From: Natrialba sp. SSL1
GTDB lineage: Archaea > Halobacteriota > Halobacteria > Halobacteriales > Natrialbaceae
DNA: 64,000 bases
Reading direction: 5' to 3'
Assembly (NCBI RefSeq): GCF_001861355.1
Contig: NZ_MASN01000001.1
Span: forward strand, 62,001 to 126,000
This document shows positions 2,753 to 62,791 of this stretch, piece after piece; positions within the stretch are counted from its first letter, which is position 1, and each line of letters begins with the position of its first letter. Under the pieces are notes generated by a model. It ran no database searches. It was not told the origin of the DNA and saw only the letters and a program-made list of their open reading frames with translations. The position numbers and the translations under genes are program-made.

Positions 2753-2778
2753 TGCGCTGGCTGGGATTTGAACCACGG
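2753..2778 (-). repeat. partial copy of the tRNA-Gly 3' end (att-like)
   Basis: On the minus strand this reads as the T-arm and acceptor 3' half of the neighbouring tRNA-Gly. The last 22 bases, including TTCAAATCCCAGCCAGCGCA, are identical to the tRNA 3' end at 2906-2927. Two mismatches break the 5' side of the T stem. It lies 153 bases downstream of the intact gene. Such copies arise when an integrative element inserts at a tRNA, or when it leaves. Confidence 0.75.
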
Positions 2779-2845
2779 ATAGATGGTCGTCTCACTCCGT
2801 TCGCTGTGCGGGCTGTGACTTCTCTCGTTCAAATCCAAGAACGAT

Positions 2846-2904
2846 TTCTCCGAACACGAGTACTCGCACTGCTACGCAGTGCTCGTGATGTTGTGTTCGG
2901 AGAA
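2846..2904. repeat. 59-bp imperfect hairpin abutting the tRNA-Gly 3' end
   Basis: Outer arms TTCTCCGAACAC (2846-2857) and GTGTTCGGAGAA (2893-2904) are perfectly complementary over 12 bases. Inner arms GCACTGC (2866-2872) and GCAGTGC (2876-2882) pair over 7 bases around a 3-base loop. The structure ends two bases from the tRNA discriminator base. It could fold in RNA as the tRNA terminator or 3' trailer, or in DNA as a recombination-associated palindrome. Confidence 0.75.
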
Positions 2905-2905
2905 G

Positions 2906-2976
2906 TGCGCTGGCTGGGATTTGAACCCAGGTTGTGACCATGGCAAGGTCACGTGATACCACTACACTACCAGCGC
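2906..2976 (-). tRNA. tRNA-Gly (anticodon GCC)
   Basis: A 71-base cloverleaf on the minus strand. The acceptor arms GCGCTGG and CCAGCGC pair. The D arm contains AGTGGTA, the anticodon stem TGACC/GGTCA encloses loop TTGCCAT with anticodon GCC, and the T loop is TTCAAAT. The discriminator base is A and CCA is not encoded. No intron is present. Confidence 0.95.
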
Positions 2977-3264: not shown

Positions 3265-4215
3265 ATGACCGTCAGCGTACTCGTGCCGTCGTCGCTCACT
3301 CGGGAGGCCGAGGACAAACGCGAGGCAACTCGCAAGCTCGGATACGTCGCCCGCGCGGCGACGATCTTCCGTGTTGACCGCCTCATCGTCTACCCAGATC
3401 GGGAAGGCGACACGGGGCGATTCGGCGACGGATTCGTAAGCACCGTCTTGCGATACGCCGCAACGCCCCCATACCTCCGCAACGAGGCATGGGGGATGCG
3501 CGACGAACTGGAGTATGTGGGCGTACTGCCCCCGCTCCGCGCCACGTCACAGACCGGCTCCGAATCAGACGGTTCGGGGTCGTTAAGACAAGGGATCGTG
3601 ACCGAGGTCGGACCTGATCAACGCGTGCGGGTCAATTGCGGCTTGCAACACCCGATCTCCCTCAACGTACCGCCGAAAATGGCGGTCTCCGAGGGAGAGC
3701 GCGTGACTATCAGGATCTCTTCGCGACGACCGGTCCGGGCGAAACTCGTCGACGAGCCCCTCCCGGGGCTTACCGTCGAGCGGACGGACCTTCAGGCGGC
3801 TCTCAGCCGTGAGGACGCCGGCGTTCGAATTGCGGCTTCCCGATTCGGTGCAGAACTCACCGTCGGGCGGCTTGGAACGCTGGCCGGACACACAGAACGC
3901 GATACTACCCGCGACGGATACACAATCGCGTTCGGTGCGCCCGAAAGAGGGCTGCCTGCCATCCTCGAACTCGAGGATACCACCGTCGAGTCGTTGTCGG
4001 CATGGCCATCGTGGCTTGCCGGGGACGAAGACGGAGTCGAACCCACATCGGCAGCCGGCGACGACGATACTGTCGCTGCAGAGACCGATGCAGATGCAGC
4101 CGATCCAGGAGGGTTCGACCTCTGGCTGAACACGGTTCCGGACCAGGGAAGCGACGTCGTGCGAACGGAAGAAGCTCTGTTCGCGACGCTCGCTCCCCTC
4201 TCACTCAGAGAGTGA
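3265..4215 (+). CDS. SPOUT-superfamily putative RNA methyltransferase (COG2106/DUF171)
   Basis: A 316-residue protein beginning MTVSVLVPSSLTREAEDKRE, with the following helix-strand pattern KLGYVARAATIFRVDRLIVY typical of the archaeal COG2106 SPOUT family (putative RNA uridine-N3 methyltransferase). Residues about 110-165 form an inserted OB-like domain (VTEVGPDQRVRVNCGL...). The C-terminal SPOUT knot follows, with an acidic Asp/Ala-rich insertion at about 255-280. The gene stands first in the ribosomal protein operon, five bases before uL3, its usual place in haloarchaea, which suggests rRNA modification. Substrate and site are inference. Confidence 0.78.
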   Translation: MTVSVLVPSSLTREAEDKREATRKLGYVARAATIFRVDRLIVYPDREGDTGRFGDGFVSTVLRYAATPPYLRNEAWGMRDELEYVGVLPPLRATSQTGSESDGSGSLRQGIVTEVGPDQRVRVNCGLQHPISLNVPPKMAVSEGERVTIRISSRRPVRAKLVDEPLPGLTVERTDLQAALSREDAGVRIAASRFGAELTVGRLGTLAGHTERDTTRDGYTIAFGAPERGLPAILELEDTTVESLSAWPSWLAGDEDGVEPTSAAGDDDTVAAETDADAADPGGFDLWLNTVPDQGSDVVRTEEALFATLAPLSLRE

Positions 4216-61804: not shown

Positions 61805-62791
61805 TCACGCATATCCGACCTGTATCAACACACAGCCAGCCACCACCAGCATCGACGCCGTCCCCTTCTGGACCAGCGTAAACGGATCGAACTCCTCTTC
61901 GAGTACCGCCGGCACCAGCTTCGACAGCGAGAGCGCACCGACGAACACCAGCAACACATCCAGTTTTGTCACCGCCGTCGCGAGTGAAACCGGACCGAAC
62001 TCGAGTGCCCGGATGAACGTGAAGAGGCCGACGGCGTTGAGCAGGCCGCCGACGAGCAGCAGGCGGGTGCCGGTCGCGAGCTGGTCCGGATGCTGGATGG
62101 CCTGCCTAGGGTCGAGTGCAGCGCCGAATCGCGCCCCGGCACGAAACGGGGCGATCGCGAGCACCGACAGGAGGCCGCCGAGGCTGATCCAGAACAGTAG
62201 CTCGACGGTGCCGAAGCTCTCCGTCAGCACCTTCATCCCGGTGTTGAACACGGCGAACGCGAACGCGGCGATGATGGCGACGCCGACCGTCGAGAAGCGC
62301 AGACTCGAGCGCAGCGAGCCAGTCTCTCGCTCGTAGGAAATCGCCAGCGCGCCGAGGACGACCAGCCCGACGCCGGCGTAGACGTCCGCAGGAAACGCCT
62401 CGCCCAGGATGAGAAAGCCGAGGCCGAGCACGAACACCGTCTCGAGCGAGAGCGTCGGAACGAACCGGGAGACGTCGCCGTTGACGAGCCCCCAGTAGTA
62501 GACGCCGTAGGCAGCCGTCGAAATGACGCCGAAGGCGAGTGCGAGGGCGATCGCTTCCGTTCCTCCACCAGCCCCGCTCGCGGTGCCCGATGCGAGACTG
62601 GCCTCGCTGATCGCCGCCCACTCGAGTACCACGCCGGCGACGATGTACACGGCGTAGAACGGCACGCAGGAGTAAACTGCGAGCGTGACCGGGTCGTCGA
62701 TCGACGCGCCGCTGACGACCTTTGCGAGCAGCGCGATGGCTGCGTAGACGACGGCAGTGAGAAGGGCGTAGGCAAACCAGACTGAGATCAT
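61805..62791 (-). CDS. EamA/DMT-family transporter
   Basis: A 328-residue membrane protein with ten helices in two EamA halves. The first contains VYYWGLVNGDVSRFVPTLSL and ETVFVLGLGFLILGEAFPAD. The second contains TFIRALEFGPVSLATAVTKL and DVLLVFVGALSLSKLVPAVL. It is a drug/metabolite-type exporter or importer with unknown substrate. It is downstream of FttA and upstream of the PAS kinase on the same strand, with separate spacing of about 300 and 90 bases. Confidence 0.85.
   Translation of the reverse strand: MISVWFAYALLTAVVYAAIALLAKVVSGASIDDPVTLAVYSCVPFYAVYIVAGVVLEWAAISEASLASGTASGAGGGTEAIALALAFGVISTAAYGVYYWGLVNGDVSRFVPTLSLETVFVLGLGFLILGEAFPADVYAGVGLVVLGALAISYERETGSLRSSLRFSTVGVAIIAAFAFAVFNTGMKVLTESFGTVELLFWISLGGLLSVLAIAPFRAGARFGAALDPRQAIQHPDQLATGTRLLLVGGLLNAVGLFTFIRALEFGPVSLATAVTKLDVLLVFVGALSLSKLVPAVLEEEFDPFTLVQKGTASMLVVAGCVLIQVGYA

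Follow-up and report, generated by a model that had tools for sequence, protein, structure and literature searches.

The DNA behind the tRNA-Gly(GCC) gene of Natrialba sp. SSL1 holds one member of a family of cassettes that is class-wide, restricted to tRNA genes and fast-evolving. The arms of each cassette are cognate to its local tRNA. Searches with a covariance model of the unit gave matches in 143 of 145 Halobacteria genomes and in 57 of 58 genera. The family is apparently undescribed. No account of it was found in the open-access literature, no Rfam 15 family exceeds its cut-off over the unit, either at this locus or at five others that are typical of the family, and no known family passed the membership tests run on the units. 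"The window" is the whole analysed stretch of 64,000 nucleotides, positions 62,001 to 126,000 of contig NZ_MASN01000001.1.

Structure of the unit

The tRNA-Gly(GCC) gene is on the minus strand, so that "downstream" corresponds to lower coordinates (see table). The original prediction had reported a downstream copy of the tRNA tail, a 59-bp hairpin with perfect 12-bp arms and a 7-bp inner stem, and a reversed T-arm. All three are real, its coordinates were correct, and both stems of the hairpin were confirmed. The 22-base tail copy is situated 153 bp from the original in unchanged orientation, and spans the T-loop, the 3' strand of the T-stem and the 3' acceptor strand. The reversed T-arm, which reads GTTCAAATCC, had been noticed without its role being recognised: it is a part of the element and pairs with the tail copy. 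The complete cassette coincides exactly with a match to the covariance model R1 of 44.5 bits and an E-value of 1.2e-7 (G000:C1:64753-64904 in genome coordinates). The predicted fold of the 155-nt interval has an energy of -58.2 kcal/mol (z = -4.7), and none of 200 shuffled sequences folded as well.

Features of the unit behind tRNA-Gly(GCC), in window coordinates
Feature	Position	Strand	Remarks
tRNA-Gly(GCC), intact "parent" gene	2905-2976	-	ARAGORN; RF00005 at 66.7 bits
Complete tRNA-tail cassette (152 bp), hairpin A + hairpin B	2753-2904	-	Covariance model R1
Hairpin A (59 bp)	2846-2904	-	12-bp outer stem; 7-bp inner stem with GTA loop
Hairpin A outer arms (12 bp, perfect)	2846-2857 / 2893-2904	-	
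Hairpin B 5' arm (anti-T)	2827-2836	-	GGATTTGAAC on the tRNA strand; complements the T-arm copy
Hairpin B tip	2775-2826	-	Mosaic of the tips of N. magadii units 1 and 2
Hairpin B 3' arm	2753-2774	-	Copy of the last 22 bases of tRNA-Gly

When the genus was searched with the window interval, two tandem units were found behind tRNA-Gly of Natrialba magadii, and related units were found behind tRNA-Gly(TCC), Lys, Ile, Arg and Glu. The window unit is a mosaic of the two N. magadii units. Its hairpin A is identical to that of unit 2, which the end of the tip also matches, and the middle of the tip matches unit 1. The inner stem of hairpin B is poor because the tip combines two different tips. In the orthologue of the window unit in one sister species the hairpin is gone.

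Elsewhere in the window, the Rfam family RF03135 (L4-Archaeoglobi leader) has a match well above cut-off at positions 3614-3713 of the plus strand (also positions 74-173 of locus L119). The match falls inside the coding frame of a gene upstream of rpl3 that putatively encodes an RNA methyltransferase; this family may therefore partly model coding sequence.

Across the family the unit is about 100-160 bp long. It starts 0-3 bp past the 3' end of the tRNA, or past a preceding unit, and consists of hairpin A followed by hairpin B, singly or in tandem. Hairpin A has a variable stem and a nearly invariant head, CGA-R-CA..CG-Y-GAG, whose R and Y positions covary. The 3' arm of hairpin B repeats the tRNA tail, starting at G53 and ending near position 73; the 5' arm is complementary to it. 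This pairing is conserved over 127 units from many genera. In an alignment that was fitted to the covariance model, so that the numbers lean towards structure, 92.1% of the cells are paired compared to 79.3% in shuffles, and 435 pair cells are changed on both sides compared to 137. An alignment made with MAFFT without structure (A1) agrees with this result, pair counts over 18 units likewise covary, and slid structures all score far below the true pairing. The difference between A57 and G57 in the T-loops of different tRNA classes is mirrored in the complementary arm, with 102 U-A pairs, 18 C-G pairs and two unpaired cases. The arms of hairpin B are thus cognate to the local tRNA. An earlier test of this cognacy, in which local alignment was run against all tRNA ends, had placed the unit's own tRNA first in 15 of 58 cases, the T-loops being nearly alike, and was replaced by the pair-count test.

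Location and turnover of the units

Flanks of all tRNA genes were taken from the host genome and that of N. magadii. Among the 87 genes in the tail-copy test, 36 have a copy of their own 3' end (at least 20 of 23 bases) within 1 kb. The same test with the end of another tRNA gave a mean of 0.14 and a maximum of 2, which excludes chance; own-tail copies on the opposite strand numbered zero among the 87 genes at the same threshold. Taken together with the presence of the family in nearly all Halobacteria genomes, these statistics rule out a lone scar as well. Copies of the own 3' end, lying 75-240 bp apart, occur at about half of the tRNAs of the two genomes. The divergent tRNA gene clusters on the small host contigs C56 and C59 (loci L067 and L068) have no clear unit or close copy; these clusters probably belong to a virus or other mobile element.

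The tail copies depart from their tRNAs in a characteristic manner. Per site, substitutions amount to about 1-3% within the arm, compared to 8-19% at positions 71-73. An additional base, in most cases C and nearly always a pyrimidine, is inserted between T-loop positions 57 and 58 in 23 of 200 copies, which come from about ten tRNA kinds; only three insertions were found elsewhere. As a guess, this insertion may mark the junction of a tip-bearing module with the local tRNA tail. Reverse transcription of a modified tRNA was also considered as its source, and substitutions are not enriched at position 57 of the tail copies.

In the two Natrialba genomes, 60 of the 64 matches to the model lie directly downstream of a tRNA gene on the tRNA strand, 42 of them within 3 nt of its end. 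The chance expectation for a location behind a tRNA is about 0.5%. Of the four exceptions, one is behind an intron-bearing tRNA-Trp that the tRNA search had missed, one is separated from tRNA-Ala(CGC) by an element that has integrated between them, with the end of its integrase gene beside a 14-bp core, and two are at a partial tRNA (att site) at the far end of an integrase element. All 64 matches are thus at a tRNA or a tRNA att remnant, none having been found away from such sites.

A survey of 247 genomes of the phylum at a strict threshold gave 40 genomes with matches, all in the same order, and no unit outside it. When 85,000 species genomes were scanned with the motif only, 75 of the 80 matches listed were haloarchaeal loci. 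Among the matches listed, 65 haloarchaeal loci lie directly behind a tRNA called by ARAGORN, and none of the five bacterial ones lies behind a tRNA. A single motif pattern gave no match in 2.9 million viral contigs, and a search of phages gave no relevant match, so that carriage of the units by viruses was rejected.

Units or unit-like copies were also seen on replicons described as plasmids. On the Natrinema thermotolerans plasmid CP031304, a tRNA-Glu-like gene has an insertion near the anticodon arm, is not called by ARAGORN, and still has a unit behind it. The 828-kb replicon NZ_CP031306 of Natronorubrum bangense, which is called a plasmid, carries a tRNA-Gly / ribosomal protein operon and two tRNA-Gly(GCC) genes with unit-like copies at each.

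Close species differ in how many units they have, in the lengths of the units and in whether a unit is present at all. The host and N. magadii were compared at 39 shared tRNAs: at 14 both species have units, several of which are unalike, and at 11 only one of them does. Behind tRNA-Ala(GGC), N. magadii has a 131-bp unit that is cleanly missing in the host, the filled site having a 25-bp direct repeat of the tRNA tail. This difference is more likely to be a precise loss than a gain, because the nearest relative of the host has the unit. Some arrays hold identical tandem units. In N. magadii the Phe and Val units carry the same 43-base tip apart from one mismatch, each within its own cognate arms. 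An identical tip is likewise shared by Leu and Thr units from separate genera. When each hairpin A was compared with those of other genera, the closest one belonged to the same tRNA in 23 of 58 cases, compared to 3.8 expected; for the tips the number was 13 of 58. This suggests that hairpin A is more tightly bound to its tRNA than the tips are, and that long residence has been more important than jumping. In the tRNA-Met flanks (L063 and L095) there is a long hairpin A, with the stem CAGGGATTCA/TGAATCCCTG, whose loop is inverted between the host and N. magadii.

Origin and nature of the units

The most likely reading, with about even chances of being correct, is that the units are a family of non-coding, tRNA-restricted selfish cassettes that duplicate the tRNA tail. 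The selfish character is what we infer from the strict location at tRNAs, the own-tail copies, the covariation, the turnover, the swapped tips, the tandems and the decay of orthologues. Of the two options in the original prediction, the better supported is a tiny palindromic element with tRNA 3' ends as its target. Homologues of the unit occur behind most kinds of tRNA throughout the class; fixation in relatives at constant length and with no homologues elsewhere, which was to have counted against a mobile unit, is not what was observed. A new cassette would duplicate or re-copy the tRNA tail, and would thereby leave the tRNA intact and be harmless on insertion. The repeated tails would then permit precise loss, tandem duplication or exchange by ordinary recombination, and the hairpins would be retained since the tRNA-sense single strand must fold, either as an intermediate of mobility or as RNA. 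Candidate routes to the cognate arm are targeting by base pairing, copying of the tail by template switching, or selection after insertion. A bolder version, which we regard as rather unlikely, is that the units are mobile hairpins programmed by tRNAs: the 5' arm would pair with, or be copied from, the tail of one tRNA, a putative enzyme acting on single-strand hairpins would move the unit, and the family would have coexisted with nearly all lineages of Halobacteria. Against the selfish reading, no mobilising gene or autonomous partner was found, nor any unit away from tRNA or att sites or, with the pattern used, in the viral contigs. The empty site at Ala(GGC) fits loss better than gain, and hairpin A is partly locked to its tRNA across genera. 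A functional RNA would be equally in keeping with a family present in nearly the whole class and with the excess of G-U on the sense strand described below.

The main rival, a real possibility if on the unlikely side, develops the trailer structure that the original prediction had also allowed for the hairpin: the units would be structured trailer RNAs of tRNA transcripts which evolve by birth and death. Hairpin B, with its mimic of the tail and its antisense arm, would then serve 3' processing, the sensing of tRNA, or as a decoy for enzymes that bind the tail. The units would be co-transcribed with the tRNA because they start within 0-3 nt of its end, and the strong covariation in both stems, together with the presence throughout the class, agrees with an RNA role. 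When read on the tRNA strand, hairpin A contains 42 G-U compared to 10 A-C cells in the model-based count and 22 compared to 9 under symmetric detection (p = 0.015), and the tips of hairpin B have 19 compared to 10. However, the arms of hairpin B have 34 compared to 28 under symmetric detection, which is not significant, so that the bias modestly favours folding of the tRNA-sense strand, whether as RNA or as a single DNA strand. The lower divergence of the arm than of positions 71-73 is also as if the paired part were constrained. A trailer RNA accords less well with the half of the tRNAs that have no clear copy, with the differences between sister species, with unlike units at one tRNA, and with the decay of orthologues. 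A role as terminator was rejected, since the T content at the T-rich start of hairpin A is not above that in the flanks of tRNAs without a unit. It is improbable that the units are a by-product of replication errors, in which template switching at the hairpin-prone tRNA tail would make and homogenise copies with neither a selfish nor a host function. Such switching would account directly for the cognate arms, and the inverted loop at tRNA-Met and the recurrent 57/58 insertion are in agreement with it. Nevertheless, the head of hairpin A and the tip motifs are conserved throughout the class and are unrelated to the tRNA, and the units are confined to one archaeal order although similar tRNA tails occur in all archaea.

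A scar of integration had been the other option of the original prediction. A direct copy of the 3' end downstream of an intact tRNA, as in an att scar, is indeed present. Integrases of the SNJ2 and HSTV2 types target tRNA 3' ends and are restricted to Halobacteria (PMC8371274). The units might accordingly be attP- or attR-type parts, or mini-circles, moved by such integrases of viruses and plasmids; the shared target, the direct repeats of tRNA ends, the tandem arrays and one N. magadii integrase element with units on both sides speak for this, but we consider it very unlikely. Of 30 integrase loci, 25 have a tRNA upstream on the same strand, and a unit is present in the gap at only three of these, two of which have an integrase frame broken by a stop. 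Fourteen inspected gaps have neither a copy of the tRNA end nor an anti-T arm longer than 7 nt, and the unit count is 12.9 with and 15.2 without such integrases (one-sided p = 0.93). The units are therefore probably not parts of SNJ2- or HSTV2-type elements, and the absence of matches from viral contigs also counts against that origin. An attP role is thus unsupported by junctions, gap sequences or co-occurrence; the scar option is not supported either, given the recurrence of the same architecture throughout the class and the 22 of 25 inspected junctions that have no unit. In some cases an integrase element has inserted so as to separate a tRNA from its units. The N. magadii element with units at both ends (3344574-3349000, locus L102) is about 3 kb long and is situated at tRNA-Gly(TCC). 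It carries genes for a tyrosine integrase, a DUF7342 protein and a 168-aa protein, and its partial tRNA starts in the anticodon loop. Several gaps between tRNA and integrase (L142, L150, L157 and L166) contain two to three copies of motifs such as GCCGTCTTGCGATT, which, judged by their repetition, look like arm-type integrase binding sites.

If the selfish reading is correct, nearly every haloarchaeal genome holds tens of copies of an unrecognised element which rewrites the 3' flanks of tRNA genes and whose address is cognate to each tRNA. This would point to a new activity of single-strand recombination or copying, or to a new layer of tRNA 3'-end biology, and the partial tRNA copies of haloarchaea, commonly taken to be integration scars, would have to be reread. 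The question is directly testable in genetically tractable haloarchaea.

Comparison with known systems

REPINs and BIMEs, which are mobilised by RAYT transposases, are non-autonomous pairs of hairpins of about 100 bp that form tandem clusters. They are set apart from the units, by description, in having no link to tRNAs and no arms cognate to the target. Integrases of the Cas1 type, as in casposons and CRISPR adaptation, can use tRNA 3' ends as insertion sites, where duplication of the target produces arrays of repeats. These systems, again by description, insert captured DNA, whereas the units are conserved hairpins.

The MITEs, PATEs and SMRs of haloarchaea are transposase-free, palindromic mobile repeats of about 50-110 bp (PMC3119063), and the units resemble them in being small palindromic repeats of Halobacteria that lack a transposase. 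PATEs and SMRs do not duplicate their target and are found at dispersed sites or inside other elements (PMC3119063). The units, in contrast, are confined to sites behind tRNAs, whose tails they duplicate. The direct repeat at the filled Ala(GGC) site differs from the insertion without target duplication of PATEs and IS200-IS605 elements, and a dispersed, MITE-like repeat was rejected on the location of all 64 Natrialba matches.

The integrative elements that target tRNAs, and their att scars (SNJ2, HSTV2 and SSV types), differ from the units in several respects. The units have no integrase, are only about 100-160 bp long and are missing from most of the junctions between tRNA and integrase; moreover, they form tandem arrays and carry an arm that is complementary to the tRNA tail.
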